DNA of 24,007 nt from a virus. The first letter of the stretch is position 1. Each line of letters begins with the position of its first letter. Under the pieces are notes generated by a model. That model had not been told where the DNA came from. It was given only the letters and a program-made list of their open reading frames with translations, and did not search any database. The stretch covers positions 1-24,007 of the IMG/VR virus record IMGVR_UViG_3300008050_004048; one strand, written 5' to 3'. This document shows positions 1-21,599 of this stretch, one piece after another. Made by a program: the position numbers and the translations under genes.

Positions 1-467
1 TCAACGACTGTTGTGGTCATGGCCTGCTCTCGGCAGATGTCGAATGCGACTTCGATGTCTTGAGCCTTCATTCGGATGACTTCTTCGGGAACCACTCGCT
101 CTCGGCGGGAATTGCGGCCAAGAGATGTTTCAAGGTCAACGATAACGAACACAAGTCGAGTGGTCATTCCTGCCTCTTCAGCCAGAAGCATATATCTGAC
201 CATGCGCTCGGAATTGGTTCCTGTGGAGTCATATACTGCATCGGTTGGGTTATCGAATAAGTTCATCATGCTCTTGTCGCATTCGTTCTGCGACCATGCG
301 TGGAGTGCTTGTGGGTTCTTTGGGTCATAGTCTGGATGAGTAGCCTTGATTGAATCACAGTCGATGAACTGGTGGGTGTCAGCGAACATTTGGTTGCCGA
401 TGTGGGATTTACCAGCGGCAGGGAGTCCCATCAAGAGGACAAGTTCGGGTTGGGTGTTGTTCGCCAT
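1..467 (-). CDS. P-loop kinase, T4 Pnk-like (AAA_33 type), partial at 3' end
   Basis: The reading frame starts at the ATG at 467-465 and stays open for 155 codons to the window edge, so the C-terminus is missing. Residues 14-21 (GLPAAGKS) form a Walker A motif that binds the phosphates of ATP. FIDCDSIK (34-41) sits where T4 polynucleotide kinase-like enzymes carry the acidic residue that activates the acceptor hydroxyl. A later stretch, VYDSTGTNSERM followed by an Arg-rich segment (GRNSRRERVVPEEV), matches the layout of the second strand plus the arginine lid of this family. Enzymes of this kind phosphorylate 5'-OH nucleic acid ends or other small acceptors; the substrate here is unknown. The gene has its own leaderless-type promoter, with the TATA box ending 22 nt before the ATG. 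A zeta-toxin-like or nucleotide kinase role is an alternative. Confidence 0.8.
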   Translation of the reverse strand, partial: MANNTQPELVLLMGLPAAGKSHIGNQMFADTHQFIDCDSIKATHPDYDPKNPQALHAWSQNECDKSMMNLFDNPTDAVYDSTGTNSERMVRYMLLAEEAGMTTRLVFVIVDLETSLGRNSRRERVVPEEVIRMKAQDIEVAFDICREQAMTTTVV

Positions 468-484
468 GTTTAATCGTAGCAGTT

Positions 485-520
485 CCCCCTATATGAAGGC
501 TTCGCAATATCAATGGTTTT
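485..520 (-). promoter_or_regulatory. Leaderless promoter P1 with upstream CCATTGA element
   Basis: Read on the minus strand, AAAACCATTGATATTGCGAAG is followed by CCTTCATATAGGGGG. The TATAG ends 21 nt before the ATG at 467. That puts an archaeal start site (about 25 nt after the TATA centre) on the start codon. The same arrangement occurs at four other genes in the window. Confidence 0.7.
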
Positions 521-575: not shown

Positions 576-992
576 TTACCTTTTCCAGAACAAGCCGTGA
601 ATGCTTTGAACTGGTCGGCGGTCTCTGACTCGTGGGTCTGTATCAACAACGACTTCACCAGATTTGTTTAGAAGAAGGACATGGCCTTTTACTGCGACAA
701 CAAATCCAACCAAACCTGCTTCAACGGCTCGGTCGGCGATTGCATTCTTGAATTGTGAAACGGACTTTGCTTTGAACGCAGACTTGCGAGAGCGAACGGA
801 GAACTCGGTCATCAATGCTCTCTTCAAATCTGGGAGAGTGTGAAGGAATCGGACATTATCAGCCACACCCATCGCTTCTGCGACTTTCAAAGCGCACCAG
901 TTTTTGTTGGGGTTCTCATCGTTGTTCGAGTTTGCTTTATGCCAATCTCTCTCCGCCTTTGCAGAAGTGAACCACTTCGGTTGGTTGCTCAT
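576..992 (-). CDS. Small protein with possible papain-like (Cys-His-Asp) fold
   Basis: A 138 aa protein starting at ATG 992, where promoter P2 predicts a leaderless transcript. After a Trp-rich N-terminus, N31-W32-C33 opens a helix (CALKVAEAMGV). Later comes a hydrophobic strand with G103-H104 (GHVLLL), then GEVVVDTDPR with D117 and D119. The order Cys, then His at the start of a strand, then Asp after the next strand resembles a group of small phage proteins with a papain-like cysteine peptidase fold (pattern DCxxRA...GHxxxxxxGxxxDTW). I see this pattern by eye only. Activity, substrate and even homology are inferred. It is followed by a T6 tract and is not in an operon with the kinase, which has its own promoter. 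Possible roles are host takeover or counter-defence, but context does not decide. Confidence 0.75.
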   Translation of the reverse strand: MSNQPKWFTSAKAERDWHKANSNNDENPNKNWCALKVAEAMGVADNVRFLHTLPDLKRALMTEFSVRSRKSAFKAKSVSQFKNAIADRAVEAGLVGFVVAVKGHVLLLNKSGEVVVDTDPRVRDRRPVQSIHGLFWKR

Positions 993-1014: not shown

Positions 1015-1045
1015 CTTATAATACCTTCTGAATCTCAATGGTTTT
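1015..1045 (-). promoter_or_regulatory. Leaderless promoter P2 with upstream CCATTGA element
   Basis: On the minus strand AAAACCATTGAGATTCAGAAG precedes GTATTATAAGGG. TATAAG ends 22 nt before the ATG at 992. It shares the CCATTGA-GATT-GAAG core with P1, P3 and P5. Confidence 0.7.
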
Positions 1046-1128: not shown

Positions 1129-4100
1129 CAACCTTCAGGATAACCGGCCAAACCTTCGCCGCCACCATCAATCGAAGTTCCGAGTTCCATTTGGATTCCG
1201 CCAGCAGATGGATAGAATACTTCTGCGCCTTTGGTGTTGGTTCGATACCACGCCAGTTCGTTGGTGAACCATCTCAAGTCAATCTCGGATGCGTCATATC
1301 CCCAGAACCGTTGGAATCTCAATTGTGGGCTGTGATGTGGAAAGTCCTCTTCACCGGCCATCGTTTGAGCCGAACCGACTGGACTCCAAGTATTGTTGAC
1401 TTCATCCCATCGAAGAGAAGGAACAGATAACCATCGAATGTTCACCGACCTAAGAGTGTTGGCGGTAGTATCGAACTCGATTGATGGAACCCAACAATGC
1501 ACGAGATGTTGATGTTCACTCCCGACCGAAGAGTCCATGTATGGAGTAATTGGCGGAGTGATACTTTTTGTCCAGTTCGGGGATTCGGCGGGTTTGATGA
1601 ACCCGCCAATGTATGGAACTTCGGATGCAGCGGTTTCATCCCCTGTTGGTGTTGCCGCCCAAATGAGTGGGGATAGTGCGGATTGGCGAGCCTTCGGAAC
1701 TGTCGCATCTCGATAGACTTCTCCGAATCTCCCATCATCCGAGCCAATCATCGTGAATGACATGACAATGTGGATATTCCCTTTGCCGTCAGTAGTGAGT
1801 GAGATGTCTCGATAATTGGGATTGGTTTTGCGGAGTTCTGACACTCCATCATACACAGGACCCCGCCATAGTGTGATGTGCGCTCCAAGACCATCTGTGC
1901 TGGTGTATTGTTCCGCAAGGGTCTTGCGAGTATCAAACACCGAGATGAGCGTCTGGCGTGGCGCATAGGCAACGGGAGAGGACTCCCTATCGTCTTTGAT
2001 GGACAACACAATTGCCCTATCCCTTTCATCAATGATGGCATCATAATAGACCACATCTTTCGTCTCCATTGGATTCTTTGAATCTGGTGGGAGTCCGACC
2101 ACATGAAAGCACTTGGTTGTATCAAATGCGAATCGACCAGATGGGTCGCTGATTCGATTTGGTGATTGGCCGATGTTGCAGTATATTGCATCATAGTTTC
2201 GACTGGCATCGGCGAACGATTGAATTGGCAATCCACGATAGAACACCACAGGAATGTTGTCGCCTCTCAACACAACCTTCGGACAATCATTGTATGTTGT
2301 ATAATGTGGACCCGATGCAGGTTGATTGAGGTCGGTCTCTGCCGCATCCACAATGAGACCATTCACCACTTGATACCGATTATCGTCAGGTCGCCCCTGC
2401 AATTCTGCGTTGTCGATAGGAGTGAATGTTGGGAATGAATCTTCGCCAGCGAGTTTTGATGTGTAGTATATTCGATTGTTCTGTGGCAATCCCGTTGAAC
2501 CAACATGAGACATTGGTTGAACGAACGACAAATGAAGTCGGTCATTCCCATCTATCACAAGTGATGGGTGTCGCATATCCCACATTGTTCCACCAGCCTC
2601 AAGTCCGGTGTATGTCGCCCCGCCTTGAAGCAACACAGGTGTGTGGATTGACCAGTCCCAATCATAAATGGGGTCGGGGTTTTGAGAGGGTGATGTGCGA
2701 ACCGCTTTGTGATAATAGAATCTGTGCGCTCGATGGTTTGCCGTATCGTCTGGATTCGCATGATATTCGAGAATTGCATGAATCGTTCCCGCCGAATCCG
2801 ATGCAAATGCCGCACCCATCACTCGGCCTTTGTGATATTCTGCTGGGGTCGTGAGACCTGCTCCTATCGAGTTCAATAAGGGGCCGACTTCATCCAATCC
2901 TCCGAACACAGCGGATTCATTTTGTGGTTTCATCGCCTTCTTATTCCAAAACAAATCTCCGTGAAGTGGCTTCTTGATGTGAGTCCATTGTGGCAAATTG
3001 TCTGAACCTGATTGGCAAGAACGGCGGATGAAGAATTGATGGAGTGTGCCGTCTGGTGTTCGCAATTGTCGTTGACCCATTCCGAGATTCTGTGGGCCTG
3101 ACCCACCGGCCATTACTGCTGGGCCTGACATATCGTTGCCATCCATATTCGATTGCCGTTGAATCATATACACCCCCTTCGGGTCTTGGAATCCCATCCC
3201 GACCGCCGAAGCGATTGAACCAGAATCCCACATCGGCTTCGCCGTCTGCGACACATGAACATCAACACTCGATTGTAATTGCTCGGACAAAGCCAACACA
3301 TCGAGTTCATGAATCTCGTTGACTCTCGCCAACATCAATGGTGAATATCGACTGGATTCAATCATCGCCAAGTCATAATCGGAATTGGGGAGAATCGGCA
3401 TGGCCGAAGCGTGAAAGTGGTCAGTCGGATGGTCAGACCAAAACGCCTCAAGACCGAATGAGCCACTCACGATGGGTCCGTGAACTCTTGTTCCAATGGT
3501 GTCCATTGGTGCAATTTGCGCCCCTGACACACCACCCGAACCCCAAGTGGGCTTATCCCATAGGTTCGTTCTCAAGAAGTATTGACCGGCCACAGGTCGA
3601 GCCGCATCCGGTGGCGATTCTCCACCGAGTTCAAATCCTGTGTTGAATTGTGATGCTCCCAGCAGATGAATGTTGTCGGTTCGGTGGAATGGAGTCTCCA
3701 TCTCAAGTTCAATGGCGTTCTTTCCACCGGCTCTCGCTCGAACACTCACGGCTGGTGGAATTAACAAATGAATTGGAATGTTGTAGCCGACTCCACCGTG
3801 AACTTGTTTGAATACTCGGTCGACTCGATATGGGTGCATTTTGGTTGAGATTCCATAATGCAGGGGTCCGTGATGCGACCAACCACCAACCCGACCACGC
3901 ATCAACCGATGACCTTGAACCTCCGCACTCCCCCAAGAGAACACCCGACCACCGACAGTCAATGATGTCCATTCCATCGCCCCTATTGCTTCGAGTGGCG
4001 GTGGGAGATTTGGGTCCCAAGTCCGAACCAGATAGTTTGTTGGTTCTTCTCGCAAAGCCCTGCCATCAGATGCTTGATATTGGCTTTCATAGATGGTTGA

Positions 4101-8104: not shown

Positions 8105-8112
8105 GCTTTAAG
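8105..8112 (-). promoter_or_regulatory. TATA-like box for the 2318 aa gene
   Basis: CTTAAAGC on the minus strand, with TTAA (8108-8111) ending 23 nt before the GTG at 8084. No Shine-Dalgarno site precedes the GTG, which supports a leaderless start. The CCATTGA element is absent. The call rests only on spacing and the preceding T6 tract. Confidence 0.35.
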
Positions 8113-8129
8113 TGGTTATTGATGAAATG

Positions 8130-8151
8130 AAAAAAGACTTCAACCCCCGAA
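8130..8151 (-). terminator. T6 tract after the 97-codon ORF
   Basis: On the minus strand a weak CTTC/GAAG stem is followed by TCTTTTTTC (T6 at 8130-8135), immediately after the TGA at 8140-8142. With promoter P3 it bounds a unit of about 300 nt. Confidence 0.45.
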
Positions 8152-8433
8152 GGAGTATGAAGCGAGTCGAGATTTAAGGCAGAACAAAACCTTTGGACAG
8201 TTTAACCCCCACTCCGGTTCTCGCTCACAAGCGGTGATTTGCTTAGAACTCTGACAGGCCTTCTTGGGGGAATACGCCGCATTCACGCCTTGATATTTCA
8301 ACCACCGATATTCCGGTGGCTCTTGGTATTTCAACCCGCAAGGCGATACTCTGTTTGGCGCATCCATGAATCCTCTCGACTCAATGCCCCCATTCAAAGA
8401 AGAGGGGCGGCTTCGGTGGGGGTGTTCTCCCAC
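8140..8433 (-). CDS. Putative 97 aa Cys-containing protein, or ncRNA, with its own promoter and terminator
   Basis: The GTG at 8433 lies 22 nt after the TATAG of promoter P3, exactly the spacing of the other leaderless genes, and the frame closes at 8140 next to a T6 tract. An internal ATG at 8367, preceded by AGAGGA, would give 75 aa. The product is basic, with five cysteines (32, 60, 69, 79, 85) and a doubled LKYQ motif (34-37 and 45-48). I recognise no family. The doubled motif comes from a 15-nt direct repeat (8289-8303 and 8322-8336, one mismatch) around a perfect 6-bp hairpin, so the transcript may be a structured RNA instead. Composition is not clearly protein-like. The regulatory bounds are the main evidence. 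Confidence 0.4.
   Translation of the reverse strand: MGEHPHRSRPSSLNGGIESRGFMDAPNRVSPCGLKYQEPPEYRWLKYQGVNAAYSPKKACQSSKQITACEREPEWGLNCPKVLFCLKSRLASYSFGG
8289..8336 (-). repeat. 15-nt direct repeat flanking a 6-bp hairpin
   Basis: GGTTGAAATAcCAAG and GGTTGAAATAtCAAG (minus strand) flank the stem CCACCG/CGGTGG (8302-8307 with 8314-8319; loop 8308-8313), which overlaps the end of one repeat. Visible directly in the sequence; function unknown. Confidence 0.6.
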
Positions 8434-8455: not shown

Positions 8456-8486
8456 CTATATGAACTCTTCGGAATATCAATGGTTT
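8456..8486 (-). promoter_or_regulatory. Leaderless promoter P3 with upstream CCATTGA element
   Basis: On the minus strand AAACCATTGATATTCCGAAG precedes AGTTCATATAG. TATAG ends 22 nt before the GTG at 8433. The upstream element overlaps the TAA stop (8485-8487) of the hub gene. It is almost identical to P1 and P5. Confidence 0.65.
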
Positions 8487-10332: not shown

Positions 10333-10605
10333 TCAAAAGTTCGTTTTGATGTAGCAAGATGCGAGATGGTCAATGAATCCGTGAATTGCTTCGGGGTTAT
10401 GCCATTCGATTTCACGAATGGTGTGGCGAATCTGCGCCTGTTCTGGGTATGATGCGACTTCAATAACCATGCGGATAACTTCATCAGAGTCGATGTAGTG
10501 GCACATCGACTGGTCATCAATGTATTGGATGGTTCGATTTGGCAGGTTGCGCTCTGCGAAGTATGTGGTCAAGTATTTCTGAACGAGAGTTTCTTGGGTC
10601 GCCAT
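10333..10605 (-). CDS. Unknown small protein (90 aa)
   Basis: Starts at ATG 10605, exactly at the start site predicted by promoter P4 (TATAG ending 21 nt upstream). The protein is polar and mostly helical by appearance, with acidic and His-containing segments (IDDQSMCHYIDSDE, REIEWHNPEAIHGF) and two cysteines. There is no signal peptide, membrane segment or known motif. It lies between the distal-tail-type gene and the hub gene, where small baseplate or chaperone proteins often occur in tailed viruses, but I cannot assign a role. Its own promoter with the CCATTGA-like element suggests that it is timed separately from the upstream tail operon. The hub gene 36 nt downstream may be co-transcribed. 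Confidence 0.75.
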   Translation of the reverse strand: MATQETLVQKYLTTYFAERNLPNRTIQYIDDQSMCHYIDSDEVIRMVIEVASYPEQAQIRHTIREIEWHNPEAIHGFIDHLASCYIKTNF

Positions 10606-10626: not shown

Positions 10627-10657
10627 CTATATGAACCCTTTGGTTCTCTCAATGTTT
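10627..10657 (-). promoter_or_regulatory. Leaderless promoter P4 (diverged CATTGA element)
   Basis: On the minus strand AAACATTGAGAGAACCAAAG precedes GGTTCATATAGG. TATAG ends 21 nt before the ATG at 10605. The upstream element is the most diverged of the five and is one base longer. Confidence 0.6.
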
Positions 10658-10660
10658 GAG

Positions 10661-10724
10661 AATCACAATTGAATAGTTCTCGATTATTCATAGTTCATAA
10701 AGGGTCGAGCAAACCATTGTGATT
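10661..10724. repeat. 9-bp inverted repeat in the 10606-10744 intergenic space
   Basis: AATCACAAT (10661-10669) and ATTGTGATT (10716-10724) are exact inverted copies separated by 46 nt. They lie after the stop of the 1742 aa gene (10745) and just upstream of P4. They could form a 3'-end stem of the tail mRNA or be a paired operator. Nothing else is seen in this gap. Confidence 0.4.
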
Positions 10725-15973: not shown

Positions 15974-18268
15974 TCAAATCACCCCTCGCACACTTTTAAC
16001 TCGGCCACTCAACGCTCGGATAAGTGCCTTATCAAATGCGTCTTGCACTTCGACCTTATTCACATTATTCCCTGCGCCGATGTGGATGCCACCATTCACA
16101 ACAATCGTTGGCGTATTGGAGCCGATACTCGTTCCGTTCTGCGCTTTCATCATCGAAGATGCGATAATTCCGTCAATCTTCTCGATTGGGATGATTGCTT
16201 CGGGTCCGGCTTCACCAACGATTCCCATTTGAGGCTCGTTCACGATTCCACCTTCGGCGAAGAATAATCCACCGACCGCACCGCCGATGAGCGCACCAAC
16301 GGGTCCACCCATCATGAATCCAATTCCAGCGCCAGCCGCCGCCGACCCCATACTGAATCCGGTGTCCTCTTCTAAGTCATTTGAGAATCCCTCCATATCA
16401 AATCCAAGCATCTGGGCTATCGCCGACAATACTCGCCAAACCGGATTGATGACTTCAAACCAAGCACCAAAGGCGGCTCCAAGACCGTCAATGACTCCCT
16501 CGAAGTCGAGTTCGATAATCGAATTGATGACCTGTGCAATCGCACCAATCATTCGATAGACCGGCTCCATGAAAAAGAACATGAATTGAAGCGCATATCC
16601 AACCAATTTGAGAACTGGCGCAAGGAGAATGAGAACATCGGCGAAGGTTTGGAACATCGGAACCAATGCTTCGAGAAGCGGCGGCAATATCTCTCCGACA
16701 GCAACCGCAAGTTCAGCGAATGCTGGAACCATCGGTGCGAGATTCACAATCATCTCCTTGAGAGCAGGGATGACTTCTTCAACGAGCATGGGTCCGAAGT
16801 TCTCGCCGATGTCCAACAAGAACGATTCCCAAGCCGCACCCAGACTTTGGAGAGAGAACAGGGTTGAGGTCTCCATCACCTTTGTGATTTCAGCCGTCTT
16901 TCCAATCCCCTCTTGAGCCTTCTTATTGGCTTCTGTGAGTTCATTCATCCCATCGACATTCGCCAACAATGCCATCGCCGCTGTTCCACCACGAACGCCG
17001 AATAATTCCAACATTTGATTTGTGGTCGCACCCGAATCTCGCAATTGTAGGAACACATCGCTTAGGCTGGTGAGTCCGGTTGTCTGTTCCCCAACGGTTT
17101 TGTTAAGGTCGGAATATGACTCCTTTTGTGCTTGGATGGTTTCATTGACCCTCTTCTGTTCTGCGCCAGTAATTTGTTGCTCGATTCTTCGCTCGGCCAT
17201 CGTGATGTTGAGGTCGGCATTCGCTGATTCGAGTCGACTAATTTGTTCCATCTCACGCTTGTTGAGGTCTCGCCCCTCTCGTTCGGCTCTGCGCTTGATT
17301 TTCATTATCGCCAGACTGTTTTGTTGTTGGTCGATGCTCAAGTCGGAGAGTTCGGCGTTCAACGCCTTCATCTGTGCATTGGTCGCCGCCGCCGACACCT
17401 TGCTTGCTTCAAGTTCTTGAGCAACGGTTCGGAGTGCGGTTTTGGCCGCTTGGCCAGCCGGAGTGAGTGTGAAGAAGTCGAGCCCCAAGTCTGCCATCAT
17501 TTTGCGAGCATCATCGGTCGGCTTGAGCAATTTAGTGATGGCCATACGCAAGGCGGTTCCAGCCATCGAGCCTTGAAGTCCTGCATTCCCCAATTGACCA
17601 ACGGCGGATGCCGCTTCTTCAAGTGAAATCCCCGCCGCCGAAGCGGTTGGTGCGAGGAACTTCATTGATTGTCCAAGACCTTGAATGTCGGTGAAAGTCG
17701 AAGTCATTGTATTGAGCAGAATATCGTTGACATTCCGAAGTTCAGAAGTCTCCATTTGCATTCCCTTGAGGCTTGAGATTGCGACAGACGCCGCTTCGGG
17801 AATTGTGATGCCAGCCGCAATTGCGAGATTGTTGAGGTTCTCCAGAGCCTTGCCTTCGACCATCTCTTCTGAACCCAATCCCGCCAGAGCAAGAATCTGC
17901 GCCGCTTCTGCGACTTCGCTGGCGGTGGATTTGGTCGCCATTCCCAGATTGCGAACTTCGGTTGTTAATTCGGGAATGTCATCCATTCCCATTTTGCCCA
18001 TGATTGCCGCCGTCTTAATCATCTTGGCTTCAAAGTCGATGAAGGTCTTGGTTGCCTTAACCGCAAATGCCGCCACGATAGCAACACCAGCCGCCGCCGC
18101 CGCTACACCCATAGCGATGAATCCGGCTTTGGACATTCCAACGAACTTGGACATCGAGCCGCCAGATGCCGCAAGTCCGGTTTGAACCGAAGCCATGCCT
18201 TGTGAGAACCCTTTGGTGTTCGCACCGACCTTGACATTGATGTTCATATCATTATTGGGCATACTCAT
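15974..18268 (-). CDS. Tail tape measure protein (764 aa)
   Basis: ATG 18268 overlaps the frameshifted chaperone stop as ATGA and is preceded by AGGAG, so the two are translationally coupled. Near residues 48-72 there is an Ala-rich hydrophobic segment (FIAMGVAAAAAGVAIVAAF). This is followed by the tape measure core typical of the PhageMin_Tail family (residues about 75-270: MGKMGMDDIPELTTEVRNLG, GSMAGTALRMAITKL). A charged coiled coil occupies about 285-385. A second hydrophobic block lies at about 500-580, and the C-terminus has Gly-rich helices and the frequent FAEGGIV...GEAGPEAIIPI motif (about 675-705). The protein sets tail length and fills the tube lumen before DNA ejection. With the usual rule of about 0.15 nm per residue, the tail would be roughly 115 nm. 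No peptidase or lysozyme insert is visible. Confidence 0.95.
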   Translation of the reverse strand: MSMPNNDMNINVKVGANTKGFSQGMASVQTGLAASGGSMSKFVGMSKAGFIAMGVAAAAAGVAIVAAFAVKATKTFIDFEAKMIKTAAIMGKMGMDDIPELTTEVRNLGMATKSTASEVAEAAQILALAGLGSEEMVEGKALENLNNLAIAAGITIPEAASVAISSLKGMQMETSELRNVNDILLNTMTSTFTDIQGLGQSMKFLAPTASAAGISLEEAASAVGQLGNAGLQGSMAGTALRMAITKLLKPTDDARKMMADLGLDFFTLTPAGQAAKTALRTVAQELEASKVSAAATNAQMKALNAELSDLSIDQQQNSLAIMKIKRRAEREGRDLNKREMEQISRLESANADLNITMAERRIEQQITGAEQKRVNETIQAQKESYSDLNKTVGEQTTGLTSLSDVFLQLRDSGATTNQMLELFGVRGGTAAMALLANVDGMNELTEANKKAQEGIGKTAEITKVMETSTLFSLQSLGAAWESFLLDIGENFGPMLVEEVIPALKEMIVNLAPMVPAFAELAVAVGEILPPLLEALVPMFQTFADVLILLAPVLKLVGYALQFMFFFMEPVYRMIGAIAQVINSIIELDFEGVIDGLGAAFGAWFEVINPVWRVLSAIAQMLGFDMEGFSNDLEEDTGFSMGSAAAGAGIGFMMGGPVGALIGGAVGGLFFAEGGIVNEPQMGIVGEAGPEAIIPIEKIDGIIASSMMKAQNGTSIGSNTPTIVVNGGIHIGAGNNVNKVEVQDAFDKALIRALSGRVKSVRGVI

Positions 18269-21193: not shown

Positions 21194-21223
21194 AAAACCA
21201 TTGAGATTCCGAAGCCTTTATAG
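21194..21223 (+). promoter_or_regulatory. Leaderless promoter P5 with upstream CCATTGA element
   Basis: On the plus strand AAAACCATTGAGATTCCGAAG precedes CCTTTATAGGGGG. TATAG ends 22 nt before the ATG at 21246. It is the only copy on the plus strand, and it holds the element in its consensus form. The 20990-21193 gap holds nothing else I can support. Confidence 0.7.
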
Positions 21224-21245: not shown

Positions 21246-21599
21246 ATGAGCCGACAAAGCCCGAACCAATACGCCGACACAGACGCAACATGGAACACCA
21301 ATGTTGTCTTGCCCGAAGAAGTAATTGAAGCCTATATGGATATGCAAGCACGAGTGTTCGCAAAGCACGAAGGACACCCATCATTCAACCATGCTATGTA
21401 TTCCCAGACTCCACAAGACTTTCAAGAAGCATATTCCGCTGGATATGAACAAGCAGACCGTTGCCAAGAAGTATTCGGAACAATGTCAGTCAACAACCGC
21501 AACCGCACCGGAATCCGCAACACAACAGGAATCCGCTATGCAACCGGCGTTGCCGCAAAAGCATTCCAAGCAGGATTCAATGCTCGCACAATGGAGTGA
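21246..21599 (+). CDS. Unknown 117 aa protein, first gene of plus-strand cassette
   Basis: ATG 21246 is set by promoter P5; a longer frame from 21099 would translate the promoter itself. The protein appears soluble and mostly helical. It has VVLPEEVIEAYMDMQARVF, a His-rich loop (KHEGHPSFNHAMYS) and a long helix (DFQEAYSAGYEQADRCQEVF). The C-terminal part has a repeated TGIR/ATG pattern (RTGIRNTTGIRYATG) before a final helix, AAKAFQAGF. I recognise no family. It is transcribed against all surrounding virion genes and is followed closely by a membrane protein gene, so the pair may act together, for instance in lysis or superinfection exclusion; this is a guess from context. Confidence 0.75.
   Translation: MSRQSPNQYADTDATWNTNVVLPEEVIEAYMDMQARVFAKHEGHPSFNHAMYSQTPQDFQEAYSAGYEQADRCQEVFGTMSVNNRNRTGIRNTTGIRYATGVAAKAFQAGFNARTME

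Follow-up and report, generated by a model that had tools for sequence, protein, structure and literature searches.

A probable two-layer promoter class in tailed viruses, probably of marine Euryarchaeota

Scattered genes in a lineage of viral contigs are preceded by one and the same element, which keeps its sequence and its distance from the start codon, is often partly repeated, and is rare in the genomes of Poseidoniales. This element probably represents a two-layer promoter class, in which a host-type core is joined to a virus-specific regulator site, in tailed viruses that are themselves probably viruses of marine Euryarchaeota. The core would consist of a BRE (CCGAAG), two free bases and a TATA box (TTSATATAG, TTTATAG or TTGATAAGG) about 22 nt before the start codon; it is presumably read by the TBP and TFB of the host and would give rise to leaderless mRNAs. 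The putative virus site, CATTGAKAT, would lie directly upstream of the core at about -49 to -40 from the start codon.

The stretch of DNA that was analysed, referred to here as the window, is a complete IMG/VR record of 24,007 bases. It equals bases 31,363-55,369 of IMGVR_UViG_3300025133_000060 (G001, 81,530 bases) with 6 mismatches. G001 encodes a Phage_capsid-family protein, a portal, a tail tape measure protein, a family B polymerase, a clamp loader and a helicase, and has weak matches to a GpA-like terminase and to primases. Two further contigs, G003 (65 kb) and G009 (78 kb), contain 46 and 50 of its 85 predicted genes. The top-ranked matches of the polymerase and clamp loader in a phage collection are haloarchaeal tailed viruses, and the best matches of the portal, capsid, terminase and CbbQ-like ATPase are bacterial phages. 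The lineage bearing the element probably consists of tailed dsDNA viruses with a host among marine Euryarchaeota of the Poseidoniales type.

Which clues bear on the host? The G001 clamp loader is 40-45% identical to most clamp loaders of Poseidoniales (56 of 60 genomes) and about 42% identical, over a shorter stretch, to those of haloviruses; this clue is not decisive. No tRNA genes were found in 13 pieces. The portal had no match in 292 Poseidoniales genomes and TerL none in 389 Thermoplasmatota genomes, empty search answers that prove little. The host-type promoter core described below supports a Poseidoniales-type host, short of proof.

Five promoters in the window

The preliminary description had listed five sites at which the element stands before a TATA box, and all five are present where it placed them. 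A scan of the window with CCATTGAGATTCCGAAG at up to three mismatches gave six matches against 0.14 expected, and none of 100 shuffles reached six. Four of these are regular sites, at 500-516 (-), 1025-1041 (-), 8467-8483 (-) and 21198-21214 (+); the other two, at 1309-1325 (-) and 17724-17740 (+), have three mismatches and fall within long genes, and no TATA box follows either. The fifth site, 10627-10657 (-), is missed at this threshold: it reads ACATTGAGAGAACCAAAG-GG-TTCATATAG, with one extra base and an unchanged architecture. The promoters and what follows them are listed here, with scores from the motif model.

489-516, minus strand: promoter 1, with element CCATTGATAT (516-507), BRE-like TGCGAAG (506-500) and TATA box TTCATATAG (497-489), before ATG 467; score 43.4
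3-467, minus strand: gene behind promoter 1, encoding a P-loop kinase / zeta-toxin-like AAA_33 protein, truncated at the window edge (163 aa in G001)
1015-1041, minus strand: promoter 2, CCATTGAGATTCAGAAG (1041-1025), then GTATTATAAG, before ATG 992; score 37.9
576-992, minus strand: gene behind promoter 2, with a product of 138 aa that PHROGs and Pfam do not match at E 0.01
8456-8483, minus strand: promoter 3, CCATTGATATTCCGAAG (8483-8467), then AGTTCATATAG, before GTG 8433; score 39.0
8105-8433, minus strand: region behind promoter 3, either a 97-aa GTG ORF (8140-8433) of doubtful status or a structured RNA with a hairpin and then a T run at its end
10627-10655, minus strand: promoter 4, variant with one extra base, ACATTGAGAGAACCAAAG (10655-10638), GG, TTCATATAG, before ATG 10605; score 4.3
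10663-10669, minus strand: extra ATTGTGA copy upstream of promoter 4, 16 bp from its ATTGAGA
10333-10605, minus strand: gene behind promoter 4, 90-aa protein, phrog_6004 of unknown function (E 1.5e-6)
21198-21223, plus strand: promoter 5, CCATTGAGAT (21198-21207), BRE-like TCCGAAG (21208-21214), CC, TTTATAG (21217-21223), before ATG 21246; score 43.9
21246-21599, plus strand: gene behind promoter 5, 117-aa protein with homologues in G003 (68%) and G009 (44%) that share the promoter type

The four regular sites, at 37.9-43.9, stand out from a next-best score of 11.5 among 1202 start codons (ATG, GTG or TTG of window ORFs of at least 40 aa), in a model that the window sites themselves had helped to train. 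The low score of the fifth site results from its 1-bp insertion, which shifts the model. At all five sites TATAG or TATAAG ends 21 or 22 nt before ATG or GTG, as first reported: 21 nt before ATG 467, 22 before ATG 992, 22 before GTG 8433, 21 before ATG 10605 and 22 before ATG 21246. One hundred second-order Markov simulations of the window held a mean of 0.35 motif hits and none with a TATA box and start codon in place, under a strict filter whose spacing tolerance was too small and which caught only two of the real sites.

The TATA boxes of the window promoters are without the repeat sequence, and the distal copy is seen alone. The exception is 10627-10669, where further half-sites lie upstream; just downstream of the extra ATTGTGA copy, TTCTCAA-ACA-TTGAGAG forms a near-palindrome with 6 of 7 pairs, as judged by eye. 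The product of promoter 4 has a 52% identical homologue in G003 with the same promoter type. The P-loop kinase at 3-467 (-) resembles zeta-toxin and polynucleotide kinase proteins.

The region at 8105-8433 folds with z = -2.64, and 3 of 100 shuffles fold equally well. Rfam gave no match at gathering score for the window, L029, L023 or L032, and for the stretch between promoter 3 and the tail gene blastn found nothing below E 0.9 in G003 or G009. Two promoter-led gaps near tail genes of G003 resemble it (L029 5275-5690, z -2.52; L029 8155-8640, z -1.40). The window region and these two gaps may encode non-coding RNAs.

The element across three contigs

At up to three mismatches the motif occurs in 18 places in G001, 13 in G003 and 10 in G009, and the reversed pattern in none of the three. 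A start codon (of an ORF of at least 40 aa) follows 31-34 nt after the motif in 18 of the 20 places with at most two mismatches (11 of 11, 3 of 4 and 4 of 5, respectively); start codons played no part in picking these places, and the count is therefore a free test of the spacing. The motif is thus not placed at random in the genome. A matrix search, seeded with 19 hand-picked promoters and allowing shifts of up to two bases, so that its fixed spacing is partly by construction, returned 35 start codons. One of these, G001 33608 (score 11.5, inside a gene), was dropped; ATG and GTG alone were tried as starts. The remaining 34 promoters (12 in G001, 11 each in G003 and G009) compare with 5 of 5766 random positions at the same threshold. 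Two are poor members: G009 75147 has no real distal site and G009 72715 no real TATA box. The element overlaps another predicted gene by at least 15 nt in 2 of the 34.

In these promoters the BRE (CCGAAG) and TATA box lie at about -30 to -22 from the start codon, which is archaeal core spacing. All but one start at ATG (33/34), and a Shine-Dalgarno-like word (GGAG, GAGG or AGGA) is found at -16 to -5 in only two. The proposal of an archaeal-type promoter at leaderless distance has therefore held up, and such genes would be transcribed into leaderless mRNAs. A bacterial -35/-10 promoter was rejected on the TTGATA-TATA gap of about 14 bp, a box 22 nt before the start codon and the scarcity of SD-like words (2/34).

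Column counts over the 34 promoters give an A-rich flank, CATTGATAT at -48 to -40, TCCGAAG, two free bases, and then TTGATAAG, TTTATAG or TTCATATAG. T-46 and G-44 are present in every one. The distal heptamer is ATTGATA in 21, ATTGAGA in 4, ATTGTGA in 3 and another word in 6. The TATA box itself reads ATTGATA in register in 13 promoters, and in 18 if a shift of one or two bases is allowed; those 13 promoters are thus direct repeats, and tandem repeats overlapping BRE/TATA, a feature of F55-type operators, are found in this part of the promoters. The spacing of ATTGAKA pairs peaks at 16 bp, and their distance to the ATG at 30-31 and 46-47. Pairs of ATTG[AT][TG]A placed 15-18 bp apart number 12 in G001, 13 in G003 and 8 in G009, against simulated means of 0.2, 0.075 and 0.0 (40 runs per contig, with a maximum of one pair in any run). 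Three arrays with three copies occur in G003 and G009.

How much of the conserved block is then unusual? The preliminary description took about 17 bp beside the TATA box as a single element. The conservation is there, but some 7 bp of it are the BRE itself, which leaves an unusual part of roughly 10 bp. Nor is the block a single unit. Its left half (CCATTGAKAT) often stands in tandem at about 16 bp, a repeat that the preliminary description does not mention, and the TATA box can be formed by the copy closer to the gene. Between distal and core scores there is an anti-correlation (rho -0.48, p 0.004), as though a strong distal site made up for a weak core; selection on the summed score may contribute.

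A good core without a good distal site was found at 13 of 49 start codons, several of which look false (shifted control, 5), so not every core comes with the element. Among them is a VWA/CobT-like gene, before which another conserved type of promoter, CATAAGTSGAAGTGYTTATATG, lacks the distal element (G001 upstream of 7346 (-), G009 upstream of 60207 (+)). Repeat pairs at G009 56388 (+), G003 5755 (-) and L176 8690 (+) lead into similar CATTGATAARCCGWCAGCCC stretches and seem to have no ATG where one would be expected; the first of them lies inside the polymerase gene. Exact scans of virus contigs with three motif forms found 11, 8 and 4 stretches. Of nine contigs from the first exact scan, shared sites place six in this lineage, and the other three are low in GC. 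The low-GC contigs were discarded as chance: G004 and G006 have no start codon at the motif, and G007/L013 has no model promoter (L013).

Many of the genes behind the promoters are small; the median products are 128, 116 and 125 aa in G001, G003 and G009, against 170, 150 and 166 aa for all predicted genes, whose starts were set as far upstream as possible. The products of different promoter genes in one genome do not resemble each other at E 1e-3, which means that the common element is not accounted for by gene duplication. Between contigs there are nine pairs of homologous promoter genes (28-71% identity), one of them at different genome places (G001 15197 and G009 25823, 71%); the comparison covered promoter-bearing genes only and does not give how often homologues lack the promoter. 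The G003 promoter gene 61545 has a 74% identical homologue in G001 (1773-2105) that is outside the list of 34. No promoter stands directly before a polymerase, clamp-loader, primase-like or helicase gene (0/34). The 15197 promoter of G001 has the clamp-loader gene downstream of it on its own strand, and may control that gene through an operon. An operon of packaging genes is among the promoter targets.

Host comparison and distant relatives

Is the element a host feature? Genomes of Poseidoniales were gathered with a 16S probe, which gave 67 stretches with titles naming Poseidoniales, its members or wider groups (Euryarchaeota). The full element was found at 7 places in 20 Poseidoniales genomes, each with three mismatches (reversed control, 4), and at 68 places in 292 genomes, three times the 22 of the reversed control, 4 of them with two mismatches and none better. 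The same pattern finds 16 places in the 81.5 kb of G001 alone. One Poseidoniales place, G079:C75:16302-16325 (L120), reads AATTGATATTACAAAGCATTGATA and resembles a viral repeat pair; it could be a viral contig in the bin.

For the position of the core, 323 intergenic upstream regions were taken from 600 kb of G013, a chromosome titled Poseidoniales MG-II, and 3 with N were dropped to leave 320. Peaks of AT content lie at -34/-33 and -26/-25, and TTCATA, TTGATA, ATATAG and GAAGGG are among the words enriched between -38 and -20. The viral BRE+TATA matrix peaks at -36 (z 4.2), one base off its viral position, and the BRE matrix by itself gives a weaker signal (z 2.8 at -38). The TATA matrix has 17 hits at -29 and a small second bump of 4, 3 and 7 at -46 to -44. 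The distal matrix (CCATTGAKAT) has none at -50 or -49, and its best mean score is at -32, over the host TATA box. In smaller samples of two other Poseidoniales genomes (57 and 45 ORFs) a clear core was not seen. The BRE/TATA core thus looks host-type, in a comparison that rests on G013, and the distal site appears to belong to the virus itself.

How far does the element extend among relatives? A scan with the terminase found 80 loci, 67-100% identical, of which 6 were dropped as lying on, or being near-identical to, the training contigs; many of the remaining 74 are near-duplicates of each other. Model promoters are present in 19 of the 74 (39 rows, 22 distinct upstream sequences by our own count) and were not found in the reversed control; reversed sequences, used also for the inverted copies, have fewer ORFs and make lenient controls. 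The other 55 loci gave no model promoter. For the gene that precedes the terminase, 22 distinct upstream regions were compared and 9 have the promoter, some of them with proteins no more than 32-34% identical (L197, L201, L207); in G009 (L199) and L247 (54%) this gene lacks it. Thus, one promoter element stands before several transcription units and is conserved in the closer relatives only. In L208, L212, L214, L217 and L218 a different conserved segment, TCACAAAACT ... TTATATA with variation in L208 and others, precedes the terminase-upstream gene.

Some relatives carry the distal site in other orientations. Before the terminase-upstream gene of L250, L255, L257/L258 and L263, the distal element appears in reverse complement, as tandem TCTCAAT/TCTCAAC, upstream of an ordinary core. 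In L234 and L263 a palindrome, TCTCAAT-N-ATTGAGA, was noticed by eye upstream of a start codon. The inverted form is one promoter family in six contigs, with a weak positional signal over all distant loci.

What reads the distal site?

The distal variants ATTGAGA and ATTGTGA, together with the inverted and palindromic versions in distant relatives, point to a regulator rather than TBP. For a site that is flexible in orientation, can be repeated and stands beside a host-type core, binding by a regulator is the best explanation, and this reading fits the distal site best, a second TATA box being less likely. CATTGAKAT, often in direct repeat at about 16 bp with a nearer copy that can coincide with the TATA box, and inverted or palindromic in some relatives, would be bound by a sequence-specific DNA-binding protein, more likely encoded by the virus than by the host. 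From its place beside the BRE and TATA box, this protein would control the recruitment of TBP and TFB, with activation at the upstream copy and possibly repression when a copy over the TATA box is filled. One switch would in this way cover scattered small genes and the packaging operon. A virus-specific activator and a phase-specific promoter class were among the earlier suggestions: the extra segment does look specific to the virus when compared with Poseidoniales and would suit a regulator, which may be an activator or a repressor. We lean towards activation, given the anti-correlation and the position upstream of the BRE, and leave open repression through the copies over the TATA box.

A candidate regulator is a protein of 161 aa encoded at G001 3185-3670 (-), with counterparts of 161-162 aa in G003 (2875-3363, 73-75%) and G009 (63716-64204, 62-63%). 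Its predicted structure is a winged helix, confident in part (mean pLDDT 77, pTM 0.57). Foldseek places MarR regulators and SSV1 F-93 near it at E 0.012 and above, which is not significant, and no significant family or structure match was found. By eye, its C-terminus is RHH-like (KQITVNLP...). Relatives with 43% identity (L268, L269) have altered strands at this C-terminus and come from loci without the motif; these two cases are suggestive and may be read either way. A second, weaker candidate is a 172-aa protein (G001 71330-71848) with a winged HTH_45 match at E 0.0038, below the curated cut-off.

Could the site instead be an operator, at which a viral repressor of the F55 or Aca kind binds ATTGAKA over the BRE and TATA box and shuts off early or accessory genes? 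This is possible but somewhat doubtful. The nearer repeat copy falls on the TATA box in many promoters (13/34, or 18/34 with a shift), F55 of SSV1 is described as binding tandem repeats that overlap the BRE and the transcription start site, and many targets are small genes like the early set reported for SIRV2. However, the five window promoters keep the distal copy while their TATA box lacks the repeat sequence, no part varies less than the distal copy (T-46 and G-44), and packaging genes are among the targets. Alternatively, the distal ATTGATAT might be a second TATA box with its own start site about 16 nt upstream. It resembles the viral TATA variant ATTGATATA, the 16-bp spacing and the ATG distances of 30-31 and 46-47 would suit two cores, and in G013 there are both the small TATA-matrix bump (4, 3 and 7 of 320, against 17 at -29) and the best mean score of the distal matrix over the host TATA box. 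Such tandem cores are nevertheless unlikely: ATTGAGA and ATTGTGA (7/34) are not TATA-like, G-44 is invariant, the site is reversed or palindromic in relatives, and none of the 320 G013 upstream regions passes the distal matrix at -50 or -49. A viral factor that reads ATTGAKA both at the TATA position and upstream of the BRE, replaces or displaces TBP and redirects the host RNA polymerase to viral promoters seems quite improbable.

The earlier suggestion of a modified TFB recognition site, in which a TFB of the virus, or an alternative one of the host, would read the whole 17-bp block as an extended BRE, draws on the fact that the block adjoins the TATA box and has a BRE-like right half. It has become very hard to sustain, because the viral BRE+TATA part matches Poseidoniales upstream regions near its own position (the BRE alone more weakly), the distal part can be missing or reversed, and no TFIIB-fold protein was found in the six viral records searched, which are possibly fragments. 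Chance, or the duplication of genes that carried along copies of one upstream region, can be given almost no credence. The motif is short and some homologous proteins in different contigs share it, but promoter-gene products within each genome are dissimilar at E 1e-3, and the shuffles, random positions and pair simulations speak against it. A host-type core with a regulator site is thus the reading we prefer.

Additions of viral origin to archaeal core promoters are already known from the accounts of HF2, SIRV2, the SIRV GTC element and the F55 operators. In the available part of PMC8707807, the intergenic repeats of HF2 (class I of 58 bp, class II of 29 bp) have a TATA box at -26, a BRE and segments alpha, beta and gamma; virus-encoded factors were proposed, and mutation of the BRE or alpha had no effect, while gamma around the start site mattered. 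HF2, as described there, is a tailed archaeal virus, as the present ones would be, with repeated intergenic elements that combine TATA/BRE with further conserved segments. It differs in sequence, and the extra segment of the present promoters is a repeat of 16-bp period directly upstream of the BRE, at leaderless distance. The HF2 words given in that part, TCTTTAAGTC, CGTCTNNTAGAG and CCCTTTAC, show by eye no resemblance to the present element (PMC8707807).

The early genes of SIRV2 (anti-defence, Aca8) are small, and each has a near-identical extended BRE/TATA promoter for which a regulator was proposed, according to the consulted portion of PMC11065993. The likeness lies in small genes behind such promoters; SIRV2, by contrast, is a rudivirus of Sulfolobales with another sequence, and the present targets include a packaging operon. 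The F55 operators of SSV1 are tandem repeats of ATAGATAG, bound by an RHH repressor, in several viral promoters, where they overlap the BRE or the transcription start site (excerpts of PMC9608457 and PMC5569661). They share with the present element short tandem repeats in several viral promoters; they differ in sequence, the main copy here lies upstream of the BRE, and the present protein is a candidate only. The GTC element of SIRV1 and SIRV2 is, in the same excerpt, a proposed virus-specific cis element added to a host-type TATA/BRE (PMC5569661); unlike the present element, it is placed downstream of the TATA box.

What is new here is the sequence and the 16-bp repeat that is able to absorb the TATA box, and the host group is probably different. 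Among archaeal activators, Ptr2 and TFB-RF1 bind upstream of the BRE, and they are host regulators of host genes. Both enhance the recruitment of TBP and TFB, in the account excerpted from PMC5569661, as is proposed for the protein that would bind the present element.

Little seems to be known about gene control in viruses of uncultured marine Euryarchaeota. In the literature searched, outside which most subscription papers fall, no paper joined magrovirus, promoter and TATA, or Poseidoniales, promoter and leaderless, and the text of a profile of a Poseidoniales virus family (PMC13108676) holds no promoter data. A promoter class recognised from sequence alone is an annotation tool, which can mark true start codons, transcription units and small genes. 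Its host-type core hints at the host group, and the analysis supplies a specific candidate for the regulator. Should the small genes under these promoters prove to be early and to counter host defences, as has been proposed for SIRV2, the motif would be a bait for finding them.
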